A stretch of 23,419 nucleotides of DNA from a virus, in IMG/VR virus record IMGVR_UViG_3300025626_000132, positions 1 through 23,419 of that record; one strand, 5' to 3'. This document shows positions 404 through 17,265 of this stretch, piece by piece. The notes below the pieces were generated by a model. That model saw only the letters and a list, made by a program, of their open reading frames with translations. It was not told where the DNA came from and ran no database searches. A program made the translations under genes and the position numbers. Position 1 is the stretch's first letter, and each line of letters begins with the position of its first letter.

Positions 404-787
404 TCATCCTTTAAGATGCCCTCGCTCACGTAGAAGGGCTGCATATAACTCCTTCATATGTTTTAACCTGATTACGCATAGGCTGTCGTCCAACGCCTCG
501 CGGTTGCGGCGAGTTATGACCACTGGAAATTCTGTCGAGCGTGTGTCTCTGATGTTGCGCTCCGCTTGCGCGAGTGCGTCTCGTACGTTGAGCCGCTCGG
601 TTCGCTTGGCTTCGACAAATATTTCTGGGGTGCCGAGGAGGTCAGCACCGCCTGCGTGTAGCCCAACCTTGCCGCCGCCGCTGAGTGGTGCGCGTTGCAC
701 CCGCTCCTCGCCGAAGATGTGTTCATTGAACCAGTGTGCGAGATCGACTTCGTATTTGTCGCCCTTCGCTTTTTGCGGATTACCCAT
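404..787 (-). CDS. Holliday junction resolvase-like PD-(D/E)XK endonuclease
   Basis: This 127-residue protein has the layout of the Hjc/VRR-type nuclease fold. A conserved N-terminal acidic residue is E13 (KYEVDLAHWF). A basic RAPLSGGG loop follows at 32-39, then D49 in GGADLLG, then E59-x-K61 in IFVEAKR. These give the E...D...ExK catalytic set that binds a metal ion and cuts DNA. Its size matches archaeal and phage resolvases. Likely roles are resolving four-way or branched junctions made during phage recombination, or trimming DNA before packaging. The start at 787 overlaps the stop of the upstream zinc/HTH gene by 8 bases, with a G-rich Shine-Dalgarno-like stretch ahead of it, and the downstream gene begins almost at once. 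Fold and catalytic motif are seen directly; the exact substrate is inferred. A different restriction-type nuclease of the same fold is the main alternative. Confidence 0.75.
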   Translation of the reverse strand: MGNPQKAKGDKYEVDLAHWFNEHIFGEERVQRAPLSGGGKVGLHAGGADLLGTPEIFVEAKRTERLNVRDALAQAERNIRDTRSTEFPVVITRRNREALDDSLCVIRLKHMKELYAALLRERGHLKG

Positions 788-1169
788 AGCTTTGCCCCCA
801 TATAAAGAAATTGCTGATGTCGAACGGTGGCTTTGGGAGAGATGGCTCTCGATAGCCTTCCTCCTCTTCGCCGAAGCTCATGCGAGACGAGAGTGCCTCC
901 TTCTCGTGGCAATGGGTGCATCGATACTGATTGATGGGTCGCCTCTTCTGATCACCGCATAGGGTGCATGGCCTGTCCCACATCGTCTCTGGCATTTTGA
1001 ATTGGTACTTAGCCCCTGCGAAATACTGCAAGCCCTCGCGCATGAGAATGCGTTTGAGTGTGTCCACGCAGCAGCCCAACTTGTCTGCCATTGTCTGATG
1101 ATCGAGGTCAGCGTGGCGCTTATGTAGCCAGTTGCGTTGCCTCTTCGTAAGCTCTCGTTGCTTTGCCAT
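780..1169 (-). CDS. Small HTH / zinc-ribbon protein
   Basis: The protein has 129 residues from the ATG at 1169. I chose this start over an in-frame ATG at 1199 because AAAGAGGTG lies just upstream of it at ribosome-binding distance. Residues 23-46 (TMADKLGCCVDTLKRILMREGL) look like a helix-turn-helix. Cysteines 68, 71, 84 and 87 form a CxxC...CxxC zinc ribbon. The last 40 residues are acidic then aromatic, without a clear domain. Combining a DNA-binding helix with a zinc ribbon suggests a sequence-specific DNA-binding protein, either a transcription factor or an accessory to the nuclease encoded directly downstream, with which it overlaps. No family can be named with confidence. The roughly 480-bp gene-free stretch before it probably holds its promoter or leader. 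Confidence 0.7.
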   Translation of the reverse strand: MAKQRELTKRQRNWLHKRHADLDHQTMADKLGCCVDTLKRILMREGLQYFAGAKYQFKMPETMWDRPCTLCGDQKRRPINQYRCTHCHEKEALSSRMSFGEEEEGYREPSLPKPPFDISNFFIWGQSYG

Positions 1170-1263
1170 GCTCACCTCTTTGTGGCTCCTGTACCACACG
1201 GCAAACTAATGCACAACTAAAGTTCTTAAATAGTACATCTACCTATTGACTTTCTCGACAAAC

Positions 1264-1516
1264 TTGTTACCCTCGGAGGAGCGAAGACGGCGCAGACAAA
1301 TGAGTTCCCAACAGAGTTGGAACTCATGCAGGCGAGGATAGTAGGCGTGATGCCGAGGGTAACAACTTCTGAGCCACAAACAATTTGCCACCGATAAAAA
1401 GATTTGTTATCAACGAATTGTGAGGGTAGCCCCAGACGCAGTTGGGTCGAACTTAGTTTAATCGCTGCCCTCACACGATCCCTCTTGGCTAGGATACGCA
1501 CTGCGATGGAGGGATC
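1264..1516 (-). ncRNA. Candidate structured non-coding RNA
   Basis: Three side-by-side helical elements (1264-1365 with a nested hairpin, 1419-1475, and 1477-1516) cover about 250 nt almost continuously. This looks like a multi-domain RNA rather than a single terminator or operator. The strand is assigned minus because both flanking genes are minus and transcripts from the primase-helicase gene would read through. A weak minus-strand promoter-like pair (TTGATC at 1518-1513 and TATCCT at 1496-1491, 16-bp spacer) exists but overlaps one stem. It could be an independent RNA, a 5' leader controlling the HTH gene at 1169, or a DNA-level structure such as an origin. I recognise no known RNA class. 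The perfect pairing is seen directly; that it acts as RNA is inference. Confidence 0.35.
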
Positions 1517-1596
1517 AACACCCCCCTTGACCGATGGTTAATCTAAAGTTAGCTTTTAGTTGTGCTGATCGTCCGAACCTGACGTAATTCGGCACT

Positions 1597-1646
1597 GGCC
1601 CTCGCAGCTTAATCTCATCGCAGCTTGGCTCTTACAGGCGAGGGCC
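1597..1646 (-). terminator. Stem-loop just after the primase-helicase gene
   Basis: A perfect 9-bp GC-rich stem (GGCCCTCGC with GCGAGGGCC) encloses a 32-base loop and begins 7 bases after the primase-helicase stop codon in the direction of its transcription. No T-run follows, so a classical intrinsic terminator is not shown. It could instead be a 3' stabilising structure, an RNase processing site, or part of the structured region further left. Confidence 0.3.
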
Positions 1647-1652
1647 GCTTAA

Positions 1653-3614
1653 TCACTGAGCATTTGCAATAGCACTGGCATGTGACATCGCTCTGATCGG
1701 TTGCGTCCACTCACGCACCACCGAGATTTGTTTGTGCAGGCGTGACGCTATCTCTGCGTCCGACAAAGCTGGGCGAGTGACGCCCTTCGCATCCTCCCAC
1801 TCTTGAGCAAACGTCTGCGCCCGTTGCTGTGGTGTGCGCTGTGACATGATCCGAACAGTGTCGTCGTCACGGTTGCTGACGAAACCCACATGATAGTAAG
1901 GCTCGTGCGTGTCGCTCCATTCTCGCACCTTGCCAAACCTCACGTCCATCATCACGTCCATATTCTCTGCATCGTCAATGTGCTGTGGCGATGACATGGT
2001 TGCGAAAGGGGTAGTGGGCAGGTCGCCATCCCATAGGCCAGCCTTGATTTCGGCGCTGTCCTTGTCCTCAAATATTTGCGTGATCTTTATCTGGGTTTCG
2101 AGAACGGTAAGCTGGTTGCTCGAGCCAGCCTCACGGCCCGACACGCTGCCATCGCTCGGCTTGTTTGAGTGATGCACGAGGATGACAGTCAGGCCAGCGT
2201 TACGCAGCTTGAGCATCAGGCGATTGATGTTCGACCATTCCTCTGCGCTATTCTCCATCAAGCCCGACCATGCGCTCCTCACGGTGTCGAGCACAACGAT
2301 GTCAGGTTTGTTTGCTTTGACCCACTGGTAGAATAACTTGAGGCCGCTCTCAGTACGAAGGTTCATATCCTCGCTGTCGTGGAACGGAGCCCAAATCATA
2401 AACTTGTCACCCGCATCGCCGAAGCTGCGCTTGCTTCGAGCTAAAAACTTTGCCACGTTCGACTTCGAATTTTCAAAATCGAGGTAGAGAACCTTGGGTG
2501 TTTTTATAATATTGAACGGCCCGAACCTCGATTGTTTAGCCGCCGCCGCGTACAGCATGTGACGCAGGAACATTGACTTGCCGTGACCGCTGAACCCATG
2601 CACTTGTATGATCGTGCCAGAGGTCGGGATGATGGGGTCAATGTAATACTCGACGCTGCCGATCTGTGCCTCAAGCTCGGGGATATCCTTGGTCGTAATC
2701 GGGGTGAACTTGCGCGGCTCGTCAGCTTCCTCGGGCTCCTCTTCCTTCAACCGATCAGGATGGTTCTTGGCTTCCATGTCCTCGACCCTGCTGCACATCT
2801 GAGCAACCTTGGCGGCATCGATGTAGTCAACGAAAAACTCAGCCATAAACTTGTATGCTTCGTCTACTAGATCGCCGCCTCGATAGCCCTCGGCTGCGCG
2901 TTCCGCGATGGCTTTCCACAATCTGTCGTCTCGGGCGTTGCCGCCACCGCTAGGTAGCTTGCCAACTTGCTCGACCAGTTCAGCCGTCGAGGCCCAGACC
3001 GAGACGTGCCGCTTGACGTTAGCAAGGCTCATGCCCTCAAACTTCATCTCGTTGAACGAGATCACGTTGTCGCCGCTGGGAGTGTCGAACGTGGGCATCG
3101 GATAGACAGGCATGTCATCAAAGTCGCACCCGTCCATAATCGCCCATGACTTGCCTGGGGATGGGGGAGCTAGGACGTAGCCCTTCGAGCCTCGCAGATC
3201 GAACCCAGCGACAGAAGGCCACTCGTGAGATCGAGTGACGTTTTTGCCGACACGGTTCTTGATCCACCCCGCATCTTGGGGGAACTTAAAGTAATAGTGG
3301 AACCCATTTTTTGTACGGGCCACTATAGGTGTGCGGGTCAGCCCCGCCGCCTTGGCTGCATCAACCGAGGGGAGATTTCCTTCATCGTCTGTGTCGCAGT
3401 CAACCACCACCAGCCCACTCAACGGGCCAGTGATGATTGCCACCTGTGCGTCAGGCCACTCAGCCCACCAGCCCTCGATCTCCTCAACCGTGGGCATGGT
3501 CATGTTATCAACGTAATGCCCCCAAGTAATGAGGGGGCTTTTACTCTGCGGGTTGACGGGCAGCGGTGCCCAACCTTTGTCCAGATACTCTAGTGCTGCG
3601 TCGAGTGCTGTCAT
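1653..3614 (-). CDS. Primase-polymerase / RecA-like replicative helicase fusion
   Basis: The 653-residue protein makes primers and unwinds the fork. Residues 1-170 are a bifunctional primase-polymerase (AEP, prim-pol) domain: WAPLPVNPQSKSPLI near 16-29, the metal-binding pair D72-C-D74 in VVVDCDTDD, the TKNGFHYYF nucleotide-binding motif at 101-109, and DLRGSKGYVLAPPS at 139-152. After a helical linker and an acidic stretch (283-300), residues 320-545 form a RecA/RepA-type ATPase. It has Walker A GFSGHGKS (340-347), YLDFEN (377-382), Walker B IVVLD (439-443), and VILVHHSNKP (477-486), a sensor-like strand. The last ~90 residues may bind DNA. The start at 3614 has GGAG nine bases upstream. The start lies inside the Cro-like gene, so the two are co-transcribed. 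Fused primase-helicases like this serve phages that replicate with their own initiation machinery; no DNA polymerase is seen in the window. Confidence 0.9.
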   Translation of the reverse strand: MTALDAALEYLDKGWAPLPVNPQSKSPLITWGHYVDNMTMPTVEEIEGWWAEWPDAQVAIITGPLSGLVVVDCDTDDEGNLPSVDAAKAAGLTRTPIVARTKNGFHYYFKFPQDAGWIKNRVGKNVTRSHEWPSVAGFDLRGSKGYVLAPPSPGKSWAIMDGCDFDDMPVYPMPTFDTPSGDNVISFNEMKFEGMSLANVKRHVSVWASTAELVEQVGKLPSGGGNARDDRLWKAIAERAAEGYRGGDLVDEAYKFMAEFFVDYIDAAKVAQMCSRVEDMEAKNHPDRLKEEEPEEADEPRKFTPITTKDIPELEAQIGSVEYYIDPIIPTSGTIIQVHGFSGHGKSMFLRHMLYAAAAKQSRFGPFNIIKTPKVLYLDFENSKSNVAKFLARSKRSFGDAGDKFMIWAPFHDSEDMNLRTESGLKLFYQWVKANKPDIVVLDTVRSAWSGLMENSAEEWSNINRLMLKLRNAGLTVILVHHSNKPSDGSVSGREAGSSNQLTVLETQIKITQIFEDKDSAEIKAGLWDGDLPTTPFATMSSPQHIDDAENMDVMMDVRFGKVREWSDTHEPYYHVGFVSNRDDDTVRIMSQRTPQQRAQTFAQEWEDAKGVTRPALSDAEIASRLHKQISVVREWTQPIRAMSHASAIANAQ

Positions 3615-6924: not shown

Positions 6925-7063
6925 TGACGCCAAGAAACAAGAGAAGATACGGCAAATGAAGAACCAGCTTAGAAGTTCCCAAGCTGGTTCCGTTTACGCT
7001 CGAGCGAAAGAGGGCGTGACCGTCACGCTCAAGGACATGCCTTGGGCTGACGAGGATCAGTAG
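6908..7063 (+). CDS. Small basic protein at the end of the early operon
   Basis: A 51-residue frame starts at 6908 after GAGGGGG and overlaps the end of the DUF6378-like gene by 17 bases. The first half is charged and helical (DDAKKQEKIRQMKNQLRSS); the rest (AGSVYARAKEGVTVTLKDMPWADEDQ) ends acidic. I do not recognise it. Its stop codon lies inside the C-terminal end of the convergent virion gene (shared bases 7057-7063), and its sequence contains a perfect 10-bp inverted repeat at 6961-6990. Close spacing, ribosome-binding site and start context support it being real despite the small size. Confidence 0.6.
   Translation: MSKESDDAKKQEKIRQMKNQLRSSQAGSVYARAKEGVTVTLKDMPWADEDQ
6961..6990 (-). terminator. 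Perfect 10-bp hairpin, candidate terminator of the late operon
   Basis: GAACCAGCTT at 6961-6970 pairs perfectly with AAGCTGGTTC at 6981-6990 around a 10-base loop. Read on the minus strand it lies 67 bases after the stop of the 3402-residue gene and is followed by TTCATTT, a weak T-rich stretch. This fits an intrinsic terminator that protects the early operon from late read-through. On the plus strand no T-run follows. It is embedded in the coding sequence of the small basic protein. Confidence 0.45.
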
Positions 7064-10000
7064 CCGCTGCCGTAGCCGCTGCCGTATCCACTGCCGTAGC
7101 CGCTGCCGCCGCCCGAGCCTGCGCCCTTCTTACCCGCAGCAGCGTCAACAATATTTTCGACCACCGACTTAGGTAGTGGGCCTCGGCTCACTATCTCTCT
7201 TACACCCGCACGTCTGATCCCATTGGCTTCGTCACCCTCAAAGTAGGAGCGGGTTGCCTCTGCCACTGTGAGAGCATCAAAGAACAATCCTGTGGTTGGG
7301 CCAGCTACCGCTTCCATTACTCTGCGCTGACCGTATGCGCCGTTGTCGCTTTGCGTTGCGACCTCGTACATCAAGTCGCCGAGTAGACCAAACCCAACAG
7401 ACGCCACGAACCCGTCGAATGTTTGACCCAATACGCGGTCAAGGTTCTCATTGTCCTCGAACCCAGCGTAAACAGTCTTGCTTAATCGACGGTCGCGGAG
7501 CGCATGTTCTCTGTTCTCCTCACCGCCTCGGCCCTGCACCTTATCCTTGAGGGCGACCGCTGCTGCACCAGCCACGGGAGCCGCTGTCAGAAGGGCTGCG
7601 AGAGGCGCTAGGCGGTTGTCTGATGCACCGACAAACGCTTTGGCGAAGTTCCCTGTCCGATTGGCGACACCCTCACCAGCGAACGCCTCTCCGAATGTGC
7701 CGCCGATCATGCGGCCCATCAAGAGCGGGAACGATTTAAGCTGCATAACCATCGCGCCAAGTGGCGTCTGACCCCAAAGAGGAAGGTCGTTGGGGTTGGG
7801 CGTAAAGATCATCTGGTTGACCAGTTTAATAACCGAAGTCGATATTTCTTTACTGCGAGGATGTTCGCTCGCAGAGCCTCGGCTCTCCATAATCAGATCG
7901 ATGTCGTCGTCAGCTTCCAAGCCTTTCAGCCCGTTCTGATCGAGGATGCGTTTGGCTATGCGTCCTGATCGTGAGTTCGGAACTTCACGAGCGATACGAG
8001 CCTGTGCTTTAAGGTGCTCGTAAGCAACCGCCGCACCCACATCCCGCATCATGTCAGTCCACGGCGTCAACAGAGTTGTGTTAAAGAAGCCCGACATAAA
8101 CTGCGTTTGATCGACACCGTGAGCCATCGTCATGCGCTGATGCACCACGTTCTCGGTAGCCGCTCCGACATTGCGGATCATCTCACGGTAAGCCTCGCCC
8201 GTGTCCGTTTGCTTCGTGTAGTTCACGAGTGCTCGGGTGTATGATTTCAGATCACCCGTGCGGATCAGTGGAAGAACCAAGTCAGGCAATGACGTGAGAG
8301 TGGTGTAAGTGAGTAGCGTAACGGCGTTGATGCCGCGCAGCCACTTACTTGCGTTGGGCATAGAATATAGGCCGTGCATCCCCTCGATGGGGCGGCGCAT
8401 AGCTGCATTAAAGAAGCCTCTCGCGTGTTGCACATTCTCTGCGCTCGTGTGCTTGGTCAAGCCCTGCGTGTCGTACAGTGCATTGGCGATTGATCGCGCT
8501 CGCTTTTGAAAGTTCTGCCGCATTTGCTGGGCATTCGCTGTGCCTTGGAGGGCAGCTTCCAGTTGCAGCATAATGTTTTCTTCGAGATCACGAGCCGTGC
8601 TACCTTGACGCGCCATGTTAATAAGTTCGTCCGCCTTCTGCATTGCGGGGAACTGCTCTTTGTATGGGGCCATAAAGACATTGTGGTCGAAGGTCTTGTT
8701 CATAACACCCTGACCGTCACCGCCATTGCGCGAGTAGGTTGTTCGGATGATCTTGTTTGAACTGAGCAGGGTTGCGATGGTTGCTTTCGCGCTGGGCGGT
8801 GAGCCCACGATTGCGGTGTAGTCGTGATACCCGTGTGCGCCCACCCCGAATGCCTCGGTCATATCGAGGCGGTGCTCGAGGTTGTCCGAGTATTTGGTCA
8901 TGGCGACGAGGATGTCATTCTCGAGATACCCTGCGAGACTGTTGGGGTGGTTAAAGTCTTGGAACGCAGGGAACTCATCGAGGCGGATCATGCGTCGATA
9001 GTCAATGTGATCGTCGCCGTTGACGTTGCGTAGTTGCTGCGCTGGCTGTGACAGCACACCATCCTCGTCAGTTAGCTTCGTGACAATACGCTCGGCAATC
9101 GTACGGGCGTGTCCATCTGGATGAGGAGCGCCGCCTGTGGATTTCTGCTCGGTCTCGAGGTACTCGGTCAGGCGTCTTGTGAAGTCGTCTTGATTGGCGA
9201 GGATCAGGTCTTTGCGCCACACTTGCGGGAAGTAGTTTTCCTTTAAGTCACCCACAACGATGCCAGCCTTCCGCATTCTTGTGACGGCACTTCTCAGGTA
9301 CGAGCGGACGTGATCATAAACCTTTAGTTCTTCGCTGCCGAGGAACCTTTTTGCCTTGCTGTCTCGCAGGGCCGTCACAATATCCATGTTACTTTTGGGC
9401 TGAGATGTTCTGCGGTGGGGAGAGAAACCCACGACTGAGGCGGCAGAGCCTCGGGCTGCGTCGATCATTTGCCGTGGCCCGTTATCCCAGTAGCGTCCGA
9501 GTGCGCCCTTACTATCGGGCAGCTTTTTCATCATGCCCGTGAGGGGCATAAGGAACTTGCCCATCGCCTCGTTCGTACGCTCGAAGTGACCGCCGCCACC
9601 CTTCTCTGGCTCGAAGTGATTGGCGAGCCAGTTCATACCCGAGTAACGCATGATCGCGCTGTTGGTTTTGAGCGGGTTCCAGACGTTAGACTTTCTGATT
9701 ATGTCCTTGCCGTCCTCGCCGATGTTGCGCCCGTTGGCTGCTGCAATCATCTGATCGAGTGTGCGAGGTGGAACACCGCCCGCCTCGAGAACTCGTGCAG
9801 CCGCGACAGCCATGTTGTCTGACGTGTCCTCTGTTATTGAGTTAATCAGCATTGAGTTTACGTTGACTTCATCATTGCCACCGCCGAGAAGCGGATCAGC
9901 CTCATCGAACATTGACGCTTTGATCGAGCGTATATCTGACGGGTTCAGCATTACTCGCTCGCCGTCAACCGCAACACTCGAGTAGCCCTGCTCGCGCAGA

Positions 10001-13000
10001 ATGCGCTGGATATGCCTCGGGCCACCCGCTATTTCAGAAAGCATCGAATACATTTTGGAGGACGGCATTACGCCCTGCAAAACGAGCGCGGCTTGATCCA
10101 CGTCTATGTTTCCGCCGTTCTCCGCTACGTGTCGGCGTAACGCATTGAGAATTGACTGTACTGCGGGCGTATTCTTGCTGGTCTCTCTCGGGAAGATGAT
10201 TGGGTTCTTGTCCGAGATGAACACGGGCTCGACAGATGTGATGTCAGTGATGCCCATTTCTTCAAGCTGCTCGGATATATCGTCATCCATTGCCCGTAAG
10301 ACAAAGCGGTCTCCGCCTTGACCCATCTTGGCGCGTACATCTCCAAGTGTTTCAAGCAACTCGGTGGCTATTGCTTTCTGGTCATCTGGGAGGGCGGCAA
10401 CCATCTCGCCTGTTCTGCGGTGGATATGATCGACAGGCATCTCGTCAACGTAAACGCCATCTCCCATAAGCTCTGATGGCGCTCGTTTGCTTTTGTAATA
10501 GACACTGACGTTTCCGCCTGTGAAGTTCCTAACCGCATCTATTTGTGCAGGGTTCATACGCGATACGACAGTGCTTGCGTAGCTAGTAGCAAGCTCAGAA
10601 GGAACCTCTTTGCCGTAGGTATCCGCCGCAGACGCATTCGTGATCTTTGCGCCTTCTTTCCCCCCGAATACTGAGCGAACGAACGGCACGGGGAAGCGGC
10701 GTCTTGCGGCAGGCTTGGCGACAATCCCATGCAGGATGTATGAGGCGGCCTCCATCATTTCCTCTGACAGTGACAGGGTGAAGTCATCAAACTTCGGGAT
10801 ATCGTCGCCTTCCATTGTGTCCATCATCTTGCGGAAATCGGTCTCGACGCCATCGTCATCGACCCAATCAGCAAAAATTCTGCCGAGCAGTGTGTCTGCT
10901 GGTACGCCTGACTGACGAGCGTACTTATCTATCAACACGCGGTTGGCATCGGTAACAACAGAAGTGTTGTAAAGAGATTTCCCGATGTACTGCATACTTT
11001 GGGTGATGTCCTCGGACTTGCTTACGTTACTTGCAACGCCCCGCAACTCTTTGACAAACCCGTTCCATCCCTCGTCAGCTTTTGACGGCGGCAAGTCCAC
11101 GCCCAGACGAGCGAGGCGAGCCGCAATGGTGCGAGCCGCGTATGTCGCGTCCGCGTTCCGATGGTTGATCTGGCTCAAGAATGTACGCATTGCAACATTA
11201 GCGTTTGCTGGCACACCGTCTTCCGTTCCGCTGCCAACATTTTGACGCTGCTCGACATCAACAGCTTTGCTGATAGTGGGCGATTTTGCCACTTCCATAA
11301 ATTCAGCTTGATCGTCGGCAATTCTGCGGCGCTTGACTTCTACCCGTATGAAATCACGGTCGGCCTTGGCCTTCTTTGTTTTTGTTGCGGTAGCCTTCGC
11401 GAGCGCCGCCGTAAGCTCGTACTTGTCCATTTTTCCGTAACGCTGCTGCGCTTCCGAGACGTTTGCGTCAGACATCTCGATGGTGTCTTCGCCATTGATT
11501 ATCTGGTTGACCCTGCGGTGCAGCTTTTTACCCAGCGCTGACGGTACGCCAACTGTCTGTTTCTTTTTATCAACGCCACCGGCAACGATATTACGCAAGT
11601 AAGCATCGAGAAGTTCGCCCATGCTTGCGGTCTCGTAGTTGATATTCGCATCGTCGAACTTCTTAATGTCCGCCTGAGACCTAATAGCGTTGGCTTTAGC
11701 CGCACCAGACATGATCTCCCGAGCGGCCTTAAAGTAAGCGGCTCGCTTGCGGTTGGCGGCTTGCGTTACCTTTTTGAAGTTCACCTTTTTCTTTAGAACT
11801 TCGGGTGTGAAGTTGTTGCTCTTGCGGAGATCGAGAACTTCGTCTGACAGGCGGTACTCGGGAAGATCGCCACCCTCAATATCCATGAACTTCTCGTTCA
11901 AGCTGTCGAGCACGTTGTTGATTAAGACCTCAAGATCGCTCTCGTAGAACGCAACCATCTCTGTGTCGAAGCCCTCTCGAAAGGCTTGGCCCTCGATGAC
12001 GCCATCACCTTTTTGGTTGACGTACTGGTTCTCTTTATAAAGCATCTTCGAGAGAGTGTCGGCTGCCGCCTTCATCTTTCTGTTGAACTTCTTGGTTGCT
12101 TGGAATGGGCCAGTGGTGGTGCGATACTCTTCCTGCTTCTTGAAAGCAGATATCTTGTTGTCCTTTATCGTGTTCGCCATTCCGTGAAACTCGTGAGCCA
12201 CTTTAAGCATCGCCTCGGCTGCCATCTGTGGGTCTCTCACGCTCTCGTCTTGACCCATGATTTGTCTGTACTCTTGATGCGCGTCATTCAACTGGACAAA
12301 GCGCATCCGTATTGCTTGGCCTAAACGTGTCGAGCCGTCCACAGGCATGTGGAACTTGACGCGCTTGGCTTCCTTGCGGCTCACAATCATTTTATCGAAA
12401 AGCGGTTCTAGCTCAAGATCGTGTACTTTTTTGCCGCTCATGTAAGACCAAAGCATTTTGACTAGCTTCGTGACTTTGTTCCAGAGCTTTTTATTCTGGG
12501 GGAAGTAAACCGCGTCATGCCTTCTCTGCATGTATAAGGCGAACTGGTTAGCAAACATTTCTTGCGGGCTTTCGGCCCCGTTAAACGCGCCTATTTCCGC
12601 CCCGAAAAGTTCGTCTTCGGGGTTAGTCACTTTGATAAATGGGGTGCGTTGCTCGACCACAGTGCGACCGTAGGCGTCTTTGCCACCGCCATTAAACGTG
12701 CCGTTTGCTGCGTAATACTTATCCATCTGCTGCCAGAACTCGAGTTTCATGTCGGCATTCATCAGGTTTCTGTAAGCCCAGTGGCCCATCTCGTGCATAA
12801 CAATGAAGGTTCCCGAAAGGCCGCCTCGATCTCCATTAGGAAGAAGCGTAACACCTGGGTTCCTTCTGCCTTTCATGTCAAGGTTGATAGAGTTTGTTTT
12901 GTTTGAAACGGAGTGGACGGCCTGATACGATTGGTTGCGCGTTCCTGTGGTGTCCACAAAATTTGGGGCCGCATCTCCGTCTTGAATAACGAGGTCAAAC

Positions 13001-16000
13001 AATCGGTTAATTTCTTTTGTTTCTACATCGCTCAAGTGCCGAGTGATCTTATTAAGGCTGGCCTTTGACGCTTCCACCTTGTCGTTAGGCAACTTGATGC
13101 CGCTCGGAGCCATCCTGTCGATAATAGAGTACAAGCCCGTTAAGGCTTTGATCCGCGTTTGGATCGGGATTTCAATTACGTCACCATTAACGCTCGTAAA
13201 CTTATTGACCCACTGGTCGCTCTCGAGCCTGTTGAGGACTGTCCATAACTGCACAAGGTTTATGGTCTGGGTTTTAAGGACATCTTTATTGTTCGATATG
13301 CCCTGAGTTTGAAGTGGTGTGTTTGGATCGAACTGATACGCTTGCTCTGGCCTGCGGACATTATTGTTGTTTCTCACAAGCATCATTGCATTGTGCAGGC
13401 GGTCAAATAAATCAGGTTCCTCATCCGCCAACTCGCTTAGTTTTAGCTGGGTGTTATAGCCATCTTGCGCGTAATCAACCATCGGGGGCGGAGCTTCGGG
13501 AAGGTCTGCGCGTACCGCACCGTCGAGCAGGTTGTTATCGTTTAGGGGGTCGAAGTTAGCGAGCAATGTTTGAACATCAGTCTTCTGCTGACGGGCTGGC
13601 TTACCGTTGATTGTCTCTGGTATGTACCCAATGTACCAATCGTCGGCGTCTTTGCCGCCAAGGATATCGTCAAGCGACTTGTTGTTCTTGACTTGGTATG
13701 CGCTCGCCATGCGAACATTGTCTTTAGGTGGCTTGCCATCGTCGGTGACTTCTCTTTGCACACGGCGGATCAAGACTGCTATTTTGCCATCACGAGACAC
13801 GAAGCCTTTGACCGTGGACTTCGGCTTGCCGTTAGGCTTGACCTCCACAACAGGCTCGGGCTTGGGGGTGCGAGCATTAATGCGGCGCTTCTCGCGCAGG
13901 TACTTGTCGAGGTCGCCGTGTCCGCCGTCCAAGTCGCCGTCACCCTCATACCTTTTCTGGGCTGCCTCGAGTGCGGCTTCTGCTTCCTCTGCATTAGCAA
14001 ACATCTTCTCGGGCTTAACTGGCGGGCTGTCTGTGGTCTTGCCCGCCCAAGCTGGGCCGAACTGAGCCTTCATTGCCAATTCTTCGGTGGCAAAAACCTT
14101 AATCGTCCATCCTGATTTGTTCTTAATAGGTACACCAAAGAGCATGTCGCCTTTGGTAGCCTTACCCATCACACCGACTTTGCCGCTCTTTATGCCCACG
14201 GCTTGCTCGCCGCCTTGCGAGGTGAAGCGATAAACGGCCTTCTGAACCTTGAGCCCAGCGTCTTTAATTGCGAGAGCGAGAACCTGCTGTTTGTTGAACG
14301 AGCGAGGGTCTAGGTCACGGACGCCATCGGTCACGGTAAACCCGTCACCAATGTCCAAGCCCCTTCTGAACAGGCTGGATATCTTGCTGCTTACTTTCCG
14401 TTCGCCCTTGCTGTTGACGTACGTTTTAAATACACGACCACCCACAGGATCATTCTCGAGCGCTGCGCCTGCCTTGGCTGTCGAGCCGCCCACGCGATTG
14501 CCGCCCGAGGACTTTTGCGAACTGGCTAGGTCGGCCTCGCGGTTCAGAACAAGGTCTTCGGATTTGATGCGCTTAATTTCTTCTGCGCTTGCATCCGCCT
14601 TGACTGTCTTGCGTACCTTATCCCAGCTATTTATGCGGCGCTTGATGGCAGCATATACTTCTTCCGTTACCTCGTCCTTGTAGGCGACGAGATACTTGTT
14701 GATTAGTATTTTCCTGTCTGCGCCGAGGTAGCGTTTGCTCGAGGCTGATGCCTCGATGATGTCCATAAATATGTTGTCAGCCACATCACTGACAGCTTTG
14801 TCACCCGCCGCTTGCTCTGGCGTTCTGCCGTCAAGATAAGCCTGCCGTCTTGCCGCTTCGCTGTCCTCAACCTCCGTTACGGTTTTGCGCTTGCTGCTCT
14901 GGTATTGTTTCTTCTCACCGCCACGAGCCGAGGCGATCTCCATGATTTTTTCAAAGCCATTTGTGGTAATGCGCCCGTCATCGGTCAGCTTAATTTGGCC
15001 GCTTTTGACTAGCTTACCTATATCGTCCTCGGTAAGAGGTGGATAGTCACCGAACTCTTCCGCATTCTTTGCATATATCGCAAGACGATTGCGGAGTTTC
15101 GCCATCTTCTTGTCTTGTGTCTCGGGCTTGACGCTAAAGATAATGTCGGCGGCGCTGCCTTCATTGTCAGGTATTTCAGCGCCAATCCGCCTTACAAAAA
15201 GCTCGGCTTTGGTTTCGTTAGTGCCTCTGTTATCCGCGTTTACATCCGCAGGCGGGGGCGTCTCAACATCAACGTCAGGGGTGTCATCCACATCAACGTC
15301 AGGAGTGTCAGCGTCAGCGCTTGCAGCCTTTGGCTTTGCGGTTGGTTTTGCAGATGACAAGTTGGGAACGAACTGCTTTTCGGGAGCGCCCAGACGAGAT
15401 GATGCCCACTGGCGAACCTGTTGCCTGCCTTTTGCGGACAGAGCGCCAGCTTTAGTTATGTCAATCTCACCCGCATCGATCAGCCTGCCGATCTCATCGT
15501 CAGTAATTGGCTTGAGGCTTGTGCCGTTTTCTTTATTCAGCTTCTCTATTGTTGCTGCGTAACGCGCTCGCATTTCGTCGAGAGACTTAACCCACTTATG
15601 AGGCGCGTCTTTCTTGGTCTTGCCTGCGGCCTTTTTCGTAATGGCAGTCGTGTACGTTGCGGTGCCATCGCCATCAGGGATTTCAAACTCAACGAAGCGC
15701 TTGTACGCCGCTGCCCTCTCGGGGCTTGCAGGCTCTTTAGGTGGGTCGGCTGGCGGTGTGGCTCCAGCGTCCGCACCGACATCATCATCCATGTCCGCGT
15801 CTGATACTTCATCATCATCAGGCTTGGTGTTGGGGTCATCAACGTCTGCTGGCTTGCCGCCTGCGCCCGTGGCGGCATTGGGATCGGGGGTGCTGCTTGC
15901 GCCTCGAGCGGCAGCCCTTGTCGCGTCAAATCCTCTGCGCCACATGCGAGCGGCTTCCTCGCCGTGGACAGATTGGTAGGCGGCTTGCTGTGCAGCGACT

Positions 16001-17265
16001 TGCTCGTCACTCAAGTCCTTCATAGTGCCGTTGCCGTCACTGTCGTACTGCGTAGATTTTGCGCCTTCCTTCTCGTGACGAGCCATGCTTGGGTTGTTAG
16101 CGCTCGTTCCACTCGCGTTGGTTCCCGAGCCGCCCGTGTTGGGGGGAGGGGTTGCCGTGTTGGGGGGAGGGGTTGCCGCCGCTGCGGGCGGAGCGTTGCG
16201 TGTGTTGGCAGTCCAGAACTGGCTATCGAGTTTCTTCTCGACATCAACTAGGCGAGTTTGGAACTCAGCCTGCAAAGCCACCTTGTCTTCACCCGTCTTG
16301 TCAGCGTTGGCTATCTTTTCGCCAAGCTCATCAAGCGCATTTTGGTCGCCCTCGACTTCTCTAACGTGCATCTCGATGTCGGCTCGCTCGGCCTGTGCGT
16401 CTGCAAGATCGTCTTTAAACTCGGCGCGGCGAGCCAAGAGTGTGTCATCAGCAATCTTGGATTGAAGGTCGGCCTCCATACGGCCTAGCTCTAGCAGTCG
16501 GGCGTCGATTGTAGATGCGAGGCGGGAATTGTTGCGCCAGTTTAAGGCTGCATCAGCTTGTTTGCCCGAAGCGAACCTACCGATTACGCCGCCGAGAACG
16601 CCCCCGACACCCGCTTCGATAGCTGCGGCTGTTCCTGTTCGCGTGTTGTCAAATTCTTCGCGCAGGTTTTGCTGGATTTCACGAGACTGCTGGAGCCTGT
16701 CGAAGCCAGCGCCGAGCCCAGCGCCGATAGTGCCCTCGAGCAATGCGCCTTCTTTCGCGCCTTGATAAAGACCCGCAACTCGGGCAGCCTTGCGAGACTT
16801 TCCTGCCGCTCGAGCAGCCTGTGCTACTTTGCCAACCTTCGAGAGCTTGCTGGCAACACCAGCGTACGGTACAAAGTTAATTGGATCGGCGATTATCGCT
16901 CCGCCGTAGTCTCCGAGTTGATCCCAGATAGTGCCTCGTGAGGGCGCTCGCTGCCATGCTGCTGCAAGACGGGTGTGAGTTGCCTTGTCGGCCTCACTGC
17001 CCATGTTGTACTTGCCCATGTCATAGCCAGCCGCACCGAAGTTGCTGTCGATCCAGCGTCGATCAGAGTACCACTCGTCCAGCATCTCGCTCGTGGAAGA
17101 AAATGACTTGCCTTGGCTTGCGTAATACGCACGGATGTCCTTCTGGAAATCCCTGTTTTTAATAAGGTCGCTACCAAAAAGGTTGTCGTAGCCAGATACG
17201 CTATCAAATGTTTTGTTAGCGTTGTGTGTCTTAATAGTTTTAAGAAAGCTCGAGATGTCGGACAT
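7057..17265 (-). CDS. Giant polyvalent internal virion protein (gp16-like position) with metallopeptidase and ART-like regions
   Basis: This 3402-residue protein is the last gene of the virion operon, the T7 gp16 position. Residues 1-100 hold a DEWYSDRRW motif seen in phage ejection proteins. Residues 110-235 are Ala/Gly-rich and membrane-active-looking; 252-350 are coiled coil. Acidic and Pro-rich linkers (355-395, 460-515, 645-685) separate two copies of one domain (about 519-635 and 686-790). HEMGH at 1491-1495, with E1569 in ESPQEMFANQF as possible third ligand, marks a zinc metallopeptidase. Residues 2250-2455 (MGDGVYVDE; QGYSSVAVD; VMLNPSDIRSIKA) resemble the ADP-ribosyltransferase of polyvalent proteins. 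The helical C-terminus has LTSLPDLVLPLI near 2990 and PLWGQTPLGAMVMQLKSFP near 3163, recurrent in this class. It ends in (GSGY)n. It is probably packaged and ejected. GGAG lies 11 bases before the ATG. I saw no RNA polymerase, helicase or transglycosylase motif. Confidence 0.85.
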   Translation of the reverse strand: MSDISSFLKTIKTHNANKTFDSVSGYDNLFGSDLIKNRDFQKDIRAYYASQGKSFSSTSEMLDEWYSDRRWIDSNFGAAGYDMGKYNMGSEADKATHTRLAAAWQRAPSRGTIWDQLGDYGGAIIADPINFVPYAGVASKLSKVGKVAQAARAAGKSRKAARVAGLYQGAKEGALLEGTIGAGLGAGFDRLQQSREIQQNLREEFDNTRTGTAAAIEAGVGGVLGGVIGRFASGKQADAALNWRNNSRLASTIDARLLELGRMEADLQSKIADDTLLARRAEFKDDLADAQAERADIEMHVREVEGDQNALDELGEKIANADKTGEDKVALQAEFQTRLVDVEKKLDSQFWTANTRNAPPAAAATPPPNTATPPPNTGGSGTNASGTSANNPSMARHEKEGAKSTQYDSDGNGTMKDLSDEQVAAQQAAYQSVHGEEAARMWRRGFDATRAAARGASSTPDPNAATGAGGKPADVDDPNTKPDDDEVSDADMDDDVGADAGATPPADPPKEPASPERAAAYKRFVEFEIPDGDGTATYTTAITKKAAGKTKKDAPHKWVKSLDEMRARYAATIEKLNKENGTSLKPITDDEIGRLIDAGEIDITKAGALSAKGRQQVRQWASSRLGAPEKQFVPNLSSAKPTAKPKAASADADTPDVDVDDTPDVDVETPPPADVNADNRGTNETKAELFVRRIGAEIPDNEGSAADIIFSVKPETQDKKMAKLRNRLAIYAKNAEEFGDYPPLTEDDIGKLVKSGQIKLTDDGRITTNGFEKIMEIASARGGEKKQYQSSKRKTVTEVEDSEAARRQAYLDGRTPEQAAGDKAVSDVADNIFMDIIEASASSKRYLGADRKILINKYLVAYKDEVTEEVYAAIKRRINSWDKVRKTVKADASAEEIKRIKSEDLVLNREADLASSQKSSGGNRVGGSTAKAGAALENDPVGGRVFKTYVNSKGERKVSSKISSLFRRGLDIGDGFTVTDGVRDLDPRSFNKQQVLALAIKDAGLKVQKAVYRFTSQGGEQAVGIKSGKVGVMGKATKGDMLFGVPIKNKSGWTIKVFATEELAMKAQFGPAWAGKTTDSPPVKPEKMFANAEEAEAALEAAQKRYEGDGDLDGGHGDLDKYLREKRRINARTPKPEPVVEVKPNGKPKSTVKGFVSRDGKIAVLIRRVQREVTDDGKPPKDNVRMASAYQVKNNKSLDDILGGKDADDWYIGYIPETINGKPARQQKTDVQTLLANFDPLNDNNLLDGAVRADLPEAPPPMVDYAQDGYNTQLKLSELADEEPDLFDRLHNAMMLVRNNNNVRRPEQAYQFDPNTPLQTQGISNNKDVLKTQTINLVQLWTVLNRLESDQWVNKFTSVNGDVIEIPIQTRIKALTGLYSIIDRMAPSGIKLPNDKVEASKASLNKITRHLSDVETKEINRLFDLVIQDGDAAPNFVDTTGTRNQSYQAVHSVSNKTNSINLDMKGRRNPGVTLLPNGDRGGLSGTFIVMHEMGHWAYRNLMNADMKLEFWQQMDKYYAANGTFNGGGKDAYGRTVVEQRTPFIKVTNPEDELFGAEIGAFNGAESPQEMFANQFALYMQRRHDAVYFPQNKKLWNKVTKLVKMLWSYMSGKKVHDLELEPLFDKMIVSRKEAKRVKFHMPVDGSTRLGQAIRMRFVQLNDAHQEYRQIMGQDESVRDPQMAAEAMLKVAHEFHGMANTIKDNKISAFKKQEEYRTTTGPFQATKKFNRKMKAAADTLSKMLYKENQYVNQKGDGVIEGQAFREGFDTEMVAFYESDLEVLINNVLDSLNEKFMDIEGGDLPEYRLSDEVLDLRKSNNFTPEVLKKKVNFKKVTQAANRKRAAYFKAAREIMSGAAKANAIRSQADIKKFDDANINYETASMGELLDAYLRNIVAGGVDKKKQTVGVPSALGKKLHRRVNQIINGEDTIEMSDANVSEAQQRYGKMDKYELTAALAKATATKTKKAKADRDFIRVEVKRRRIADDQAEFMEVAKSPTISKAVDVEQRQNVGSGTEDGVPANANVAMRTFLSQINHRNADATYAARTIAARLARLGVDLPPSKADEGWNGFVKELRGVASNVSKSEDITQSMQYIGKSLYNTSVVTDANRVLIDKYARQSGVPADTLLGRIFADWVDDDGVETDFRKMMDTMEGDDIPKFDDFTLSLSEEMMEAASYILHGIVAKPAARRRFPVPFVRSVFGGKEGAKITNASAADTYGKEVPSELATSYASTVVSRMNPAQIDAVRNFTGGNVSVYYKSKRAPSELMGDGVYVDEMPVDHIHRRTGEMVAALPDDQKAIATELLETLGDVRAKMGQGGDRFVLRAMDDDISEQLEEMGITDITSVEPVFISDKNPIIFPRETSKNTPAVQSILNALRRHVAENGGNIDVDQAALVLQGVMPSSKMYSMLSEIAGGPRHIQRILREQGYSSVAVDGERVMLNPSDIRSIKASMFDEADPLLGGGNDEVNVNSMLINSITEDTSDNMAVAAARVLEAGGVPPRTLDQMIAAANGRNIGEDGKDIIRKSNVWNPLKTNSAIMRYSGMNWLANHFEPEKGGGGHFERTNEAMGKFLMPLTGMMKKLPDSKGALGRYWDNGPRQMIDAARGSAASVVGFSPHRRTSQPKSNMDIVTALRDSKAKRFLGSEELKVYDHVRSYLRSAVTRMRKAGIVVGDLKENYFPQVWRKDLILANQDDFTRRLTEYLETEQKSTGGAPHPDGHARTIAERIVTKLTDEDGVLSQPAQQLRNVNGDDHIDYRRMIRLDEFPAFQDFNHPNSLAGYLENDILVAMTKYSDNLEHRLDMTEAFGVGAHGYHDYTAIVGSPPSAKATIATLLSSNKIIRTTYSRNGGDGQGVMNKTFDHNVFMAPYKEQFPAMQKADELINMARQGSTARDLEENIMLQLEAALQGTANAQQMRQNFQKRARSIANALYDTQGLTKHTSAENVQHARGFFNAAMRRPIEGMHGLYSMPNASKWLRGINAVTLLTYTTLTSLPDLVLPLIRTGDLKSYTRALVNYTKQTDTGEAYREMIRNVGAATENVVHQRMTMAHGVDQTQFMSGFFNTTLLTPWTDMMRDVGAAVAYEHLKAQARIAREVPNSRSGRIAKRILDQNGLKGLEADDDIDLIMESRGSASEHPRSKEISTSVIKLVNQMIFTPNPNDLPLWGQTPLGAMVMQLKSFPLLMGRMIGGTFGEAFAGEGVANRTGNFAKAFVGASDNRLAPLAALLTAAPVAGAAAVALKDKVQGRGGEENREHALRDRRLSKTVYAGFEDNENLDRVLGQTFDGFVASVGFGLLGDLMYEVATQSDNGAYGQRRVMEAVAGPTTGLFFDALTVAEATRSYFEGDEANGIRRAGVREIVSRGPLPKSVVENIVDAAAGKKGAGSGGGSGYGSGYGSGYGSGY
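7060..7107 (-). repeat. 12-bp tandem repeat encoding the C-terminal GSGY tail
   Basis: Four 12-base units (consensus GTAGCCGCTGCC on the plus strand; the third differs at two bases) encode repeated Gly-Ser-Gly-Tyr at the end of the giant virion protein. Near-identity at the DNA level suggests recent slippage expansion. The repeats start immediately at the stop codon shared with the convergent gene. Confidence 0.85.
9901..10518 (-). other. ADP-ribosyltransferase-like region of the giant protein
   Basis: Codons 2250-2455 of the giant protein. An N-terminal stretch (VSVYYKSKRAP...GDGVYVDE) resembles the opening strand and G-x-Y/F-x-T-like segment of ART domains. The end (QGYSSVAVDGERVMLNPSDIRSIKA) resembles their closing part, in which a Gly-Tyr turn is followed by a strand and an 'NPSDIRS' motif. 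The catalytic glutamate cannot be placed with certainty, so the domain may be divergent or inactive. Confidence 0.45.
12526..12948 (-). other. Zinc metallopeptidase region of the giant protein
   Basis: Codons 1440-1580 of the giant protein. TFIVMHEMGHWAYRN carries the HExxH zinc-binding and catalytic helix (H1491, E1492, H1495). About 75 residues later ESPQEMFANQFALYMQ offers E1569 as third ligand, the gluzincin-style arrangement used by phage MPTase-PolyVal domains. It might process the giant protein itself or host proteins after ejection. Confidence 0.7.
15266..15310 (-). repeat. 24-bp direct repeat in an acidic linker
   Basis: Two copies of a 21-base sequence, identical but for one base, start 24 bases apart (15266-15286 and 15290-15310). 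They encode repeated Asp-Thr-Pro-Asp-Val-Asp-Val in the linker after the first copy of the duplicated domain in the giant virion protein. Confidence 0.85.
16136..16177 (-). repeat. 21-bp perfect tandem duplication in a proline-rich linker
   Basis: Two identical 21-base units (16136-16156 and 16157-16177) encode a doubled Thr-Ala-Thr-Pro-Pro-Pro-Asn hinge between the coiled coil and the next domain of the giant virion protein. Perfect identity suggests recent slippage. Confidence 0.9.

Follow-up and report, generated by a model that had tools for sequence, protein, structure and literature searches.

A promoter-embedded DNA stem-loop beside the Prim-Pol gene of CRP-810-type marine phages, a candidate replication origin

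Stem-loops at the replication genes of plasmids and phages

Replication of the Sulfolobus plasmid pRN1 requires a stem-loop of ~100 nt located 3' of orf904, as reported in two independent genetic studies (PMC4234260, PMC3869888). Among pRN plasmids the structure of this stem-loop is conserved and its sequence is not, and the same has been proposed for some phages (one of PMC4234260, PMC3869888). For Bordetella phage BIP-1, a stem-loop 3' of the replication gene was proposed from one sequence (PMC4234260); our scan of BIP-1 for the published structure found a 9-bp arm pair only. The oriV of RSF1010 employs the ssiA and ssiB hairpins together with the RepA helicase, the RepB' primase, and RepC (PMC4234260).

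How does the locus described here compare? The window (the whole stretch of DNA that was analysed, 23,419 nt) is a marine phage fragment, and no DNA similarity to known phages was found. Its gap at 1200-1652 separates two minus-strand genes, encoding an HTH/zinc-ribbon protein and a Prim-Pol/AAA_25 helicase, and the main part of the block is a single element (1246-1368; Table 1). The locus shares with pRN1 a span of ~100 nt, a position 3' of the Prim-Pol/helicase gene, conservation of structure and not of sequence, a sequence-related Prim-Pol domain, and a small DNA-binding protein in the same module. The relationship of the Prim-Pol domain to ORF904 of pRN1 rests on the Pfam match (PF09250, 1.1e-24) and on a PDB search, in which ORF904 structures were the sole matches to the profile (2.8e-6 to 1.2e-5).

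There are also clear differences from pRN1. The helicase domain of the phage protein is AAA_25 (RecA-like), whereas ORF904 has an SF3 helicase and a winged helix, neither of which was reported in the phage protein by domain searches. The small protein has an HTH and a zinc ribbon in place of the CopG-like ORF56; a fold search with it gave no significant match. The outer stem is ~8-14 bp and encloses an inner hairpin, compared with 21 nt in pRN1, the -10 box lies in the stem, and other sequence often intervenes between the element and the Prim-Pol gene. Owing to the helicase mismatch (AAA_25 versus SF3), we do not assign the element to the pRN1 type, but propose that it would work alike.

BIP-1 resembles the present case in being a phage and in the position of the stem-loop relative to the Prim-Pol gene. 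The resemblance to RSF1010 lies in a primase that recognises hairpins and works alongside a ring helicase and an initiator that binds DNA, but RSF1010 has separate proteins, two short hairpins, and iterons, and the similarity of RepA to the helicase domain here is at chance level (E 0.77). A different parallel is offered by the M13 minus origin and Frpo of the F plasmid, single-strand promoters/origins that combine promoter elements with a DNA hairpin and have both boxes in the stem. The element described here shares this combination of promoter and DNA hairpin; its -35 box, however, lies upstream of the arm, just outside the stem.

Table 1. Features of the window around the element (positions in the 23,419-nt stretch)
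Feature	Position	Strand	Basis or remark
HTH + zinc-ribbon protein gene	783-1169	-	Adjoins the element in relatives whose contig holds both
ACACCTAAAG/AACTAAAGTT-type motif copy beside -35 box	1211-1224		k-mer enrichment between HTH gene and -35
-35-like box TTGACT	1246-1251	+	TTGA/TTTAC/TTGCC box 16-17 nt before -10 in 37/37 clusters
Left arm of conserved inverted repeat (TTGTTACCCTCGG)	1264-1276		Promoter-blind search; arm length beyond shuffles
-10-like box TACCCT	1268-1273	+	Within left arm; cluster consensus TA[AC]A[AC][TC], spacer 16 or 17
Central hairpin within stem-loop (ATGAGTTCC...GGAACTCAT)	1300-1327		Stem search and folding
Right arm (CCGAGGGTAACAA)	1353-1365		Promoter-blind search; complementarity maintained across 30 families
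Hairpin 2, candidate + strand RNA structure	1419-1475	+	One compensatory change; G-U changes pairing only on +
Hairpin 3, candidate + strand RNA structure	1477-1516	+	Two compensatory pairs
Hairpin 4	1597-1646		Absent from L002 and L005
Prim-Pol / AAA_25 helicase gene	1653-3614	-	Pfam PF09250 1.1e-24, PF13481 9.2e-19

The element in the window and in its relatives

A sequence-only reading of the block at 1170-1652 had described it as non-coding, with five strong stems mostly compatible in one fold. All of these stems exist. The inverted repeat that surrounds the central hairpin (102 nt) is a perfect 13-bp stem, which extends to 16 nt with one mismatch (1261-1276/1353-1368); it is followed by a 12-bp stem that includes one G-T pair (1419-1430/1464-1475), an 8-bp stem (1477-1484/1509-1516), and a 9-bp stem (1597-1605/1638-1646). 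They do not make up a single five-stem fold, and their conservation differs: the first stem-loop is found family-wide, while the second and third are common to six near relatives. The fourth lies in a stretch of ~135 bp (window 1517-1652) that is missing from two otherwise close relatives, L002 and L005. An 11-nt inverted pair (1211-1221/1555-1565) was considered as an outer stem and rejected, since its right copy falls in the same missing stretch.

When compared with dinucleotide shuffles, the + strand of the block folds more strongly than 100 of 100 (z -3.4); the signal of the - strand is weaker (z -1.6). The first stem on its own scores z -5.4 when folded as RNA and z -5.0 when folded as DNA, and 1000 shuffles covering the first 330 nt produced no arm of at least 13 bp at the observed span. 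The frame at 1226-1501 was rejected as a gene: it has no Pfam match and is interrupted by stops in relatives that are 92% identical, which bears out the view that the block is non-coding. No match to an RNA family described in Rfam was found, and the exact pattern of the stem had zero matches in IMG/VR.

To collect relatives, the Prim-Pol and the HTH protein each served as a query against IMG/VR, and roseophage CRP-810 was added, giving more than 100 loci. In 71 loci of the first set the Prim-Pol and HTH genes are neighbours, spaced roughly 260-1000 nt apart. The same arrangement is near-universal in the second set, the exceptions being incomplete contigs and L146, where the blind search was unsuccessful. 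The two genes co-occur wherever the length of the contig suffices; among genome contigs, only distant relatives of the Prim-Pol were found, without the HTH gene. The CRP-810 record carries no annotation for the HTH/zinc-ribbon gene (L013:8413-8706, equivalent to CRP-810 14026-14316), although the gene is conserved in the family. Elsewhere in the window, the minus strand at 7057-17265 encodes a virion-type protein of 3402 aa.

The element was sought in these loci as the best inverted repeat, blind to promoters; an earlier, promoter-led search had missed a few families. The blind search returned the same object in every cluster (30 clusters, and 37 after the second set), amounting to 90 distinct sequences at the same intergenic place between the Prim-Pol and HTH genes. 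Across the 37 clusters the element spans 86-135 nt (median 108), with arms of 8-14 perfect pairs, a GC-rich hairpin in the centre, and a TTGA-type box upstream. In many families other than that of the window, the central hairpin has 10-15 bp and one internal mismatch. When whole contigs were scanned for the promoter followed by an arm match of exactly 11 nt, each contig with a hit had a single element, and nearly all the hits were at this place. The distance from the element to the HTH gene is fairly constant (median 100 nt), and extra genes sometimes intervene between the element and the Prim-Pol gene; the element may, therefore, belong to the HTH/promoter region and not to replication.

The arms differ in sequence between families (for example TACCCTCGG, TAAAATCG, TATAACGTC, TACAACGAC, TACACTCG, and TACGCTCG) and retain their complementarity. 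Watson-Crick pairing of the arms is 93%, against a mean of 57% and a maximum of 67% when arms are swapped between families (n=2000). Six of 370 dinucleotide shuffles matched the observed arm length, and none of the six also had a -35 box. Alignment on the -10 box gives TTGAC[T/A] as the upstream consensus, and paired bases reach from ~3 nt upstream of the -10 box to 2-3 nt downstream of it. By consensus match, the window has a sigma70-like promoter on the + strand with a spacer of 16, from which transcription is predicted to start at ~1280. An attC-like element and an invertible segment were also considered; the internal loop is longer on its 3' side in nearly all families, and the fixed orientation that results speaks against inversion.

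A further motif, ACACCTAAAG, which is related to AACTAAAGTT, is enriched next to the -35 box in the family. In the window there are AACTAAAGTT-like copies at 1215-1224 and 1541-1550, and 1555-1565 carries part of the motif in inverted form. The motif, with its AACACCTAAAG repeats, is a candidate operator, initiator, or binding site of the HTH protein.

Constraint as DNA or as RNA, and competing explanations

Is the structure selected as DNA or as RNA? An RNA of the + strand would be expected to tolerate G-T mispairs, while A-C mispairs correspond to G-U on the - strand. The outer stem has 25 GT and 21 AC mispairs in 554 pairs and the inner hairpin has 7 and 6 in 441, giving 32 versus 27 over 995 pairs, without strand-specific wobble bias; locating the arms by perfect runs favours wobble-free pairs, and the extension that was counted treated GT and AC alike. 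Because both kinds of mispair are equally rare, the main stem-loop looks constrained as DNA and not as RNA of either strand. Independently of this, a genuine promoter would place the transcription start at the inner end of the left arm, leaving the transcript unable to form the outer stem.

The proposal that the block holds a new structured RNA is therefore not supported for the first stem-loop, whose left arm is upstream of the predicted start and whose wobbles lack strand bias. For the hairpins at 1419-1516, with their compensatory and + strand G-U changes, it is still a reasonable one. Here, three pairs have changed on both sides, and the covariation score was not reached by shuffles (five distinct sequences). 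These hairpins fit + strand RNA, as judged from only five distinct sequences.

Other gaps contain features of their own. An sRNA-like unit, with a hairpin loop carrying UCCUCCC (anti-Shine-Dalgarno-like), is present in L008, L015-L018, L097, and L118; in L017, for example, it has the orientation of the window's + strand and is located between the stem-loop and the Prim-Pol gene. It is usually followed by an intrinsic terminator, and in several groups it is preceded by a second promoter-like TTGT-N-TACATT. The unit has no Rfam match and is missing from the group of the window. In L013 and most of L028-L083, a small unannotated protein is encoded on the + strand directly after the right arm, in the opposite orientation to the flanking genes. 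It carries the motif NRxKYPEIAxxVDxVRxxFPxAK and gave no PHROG match and no significant Pfam match.

The strongest competitor to an origin is a purely cis-regulatory role in the divergent promoter region, which has the HTH gene on the - strand and the small gene or RNA on the + strand. The stem-loop would then take no part in replication and would act as a leader RNA, or as a DNA structure that responds to supercoiling or shuts the -10 box. Every cluster has a sigma70-like promoter, the distance to the HTH gene is fairly fixed, motif repeats lie next to the -35 box, and in most families the small + strand gene begins shortly past the right arm. However, the left arm precedes the predicted start, so the RNA cannot include it; GT and AC mispairs are equally rare; and the group of the window retains the stem-loop yet has no small gene. 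We regard this explanation as unlikely, though it keeps an appreciable share of the probability. The leader controlling the HTH/nuclease genes that the sequence-only reading suggested does not fit, since the promoter is on the other strand and points away from these genes; what it would transcribe in most families is the small + strand gene.

It is improbable that the element is a structured non-coding RNA of the + strand, starting upstream of the left arm and folding over the full hairpin, with the promoter match misplaced. The + strand does fold strongly and hairpins 2 and 3 have changes of the RNA type, but the main stem shows no wobble excess, the consistent -35/-10 spacing places the start within the hairpin, and there is no match in Rfam. 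Slightly less probable still is that the arms are a single protein-binding site present twice in inverted orientation (for DNA looping or recombination) in place of a folding element: the arms are near-perfectly identical and occasionally perfect palindromes (e.g., CGATAAAATCG), but they vary freely between families while the HTH core (VDTxKRI) of the adjacent HTH protein is nearly invariant, and neither the central hairpin nor the mismatch that recurs in it is explained.

A possible origin coupled to a promoter

The core at 1246-1368 is a promoter-embedded DNA stem-loop and most likely, at slightly better than even confidence, serves the Prim-Pol replicon of CRP-810-type phages as its replication origin. 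By analogy, our best reading of its function is a stem-loop origin like that of pRN1, coupled to a promoter and served by a different helicase. The earlier suggestion of an origin next to the primase-helicase gene is the best supported of the three made for the main stem-loop, though as a DNA element. Cumulative GC skew, which had been put forward as a check, lends it no support and is uninformative as a test: the skew follows gene strand here, with no extremum at the element in CRP-810 or in the window. A text search of the paper on CRP-810-type phages found that it mentions neither replication origins nor promoters.

How might such an origin work? The arms would pair and the stem-loop extrude when the stretch is negatively supercoiled, melted at the -10 box by RNA polymerase, or single-stranded. 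The Prim-Pol/helicase could then assemble at the extruded stem-loop, unwind the DNA, and prime synthesis; the HTH/zinc-ribbon protein, sitting on the repeats next to the -35 box, may act as its loader. Because the -10 box belongs to the stem, the linear (promoter-active) and extruded (origin-active) forms would be mutually exclusive, providing a built-in switch between transcription and replication. The transcript would also carry the RNA hairpins at 1419-1516 in the subgroup of the window, or the small gene in most others.

More tentatively, and with the odds rather against it, the element may represent a phage origin of a new class, used across a globally distributed family of marine phages. 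A single stretch of DNA would switch between the roles of promoter and extruded stem-loop, and, with the -10 box built into the stem, structure alone would keep transcription and the initiation of replication apart. For the CRP-810-type phages, the element provides a precise site that can be tested. If it acts as proposed, the idea of a stem-loop origin would extend from archaeal plasmids to a large group of marine phages with a different helicase, and the unusual fusion of a promoter with a DNA hairpin could tie transcription directly to the start of replication.
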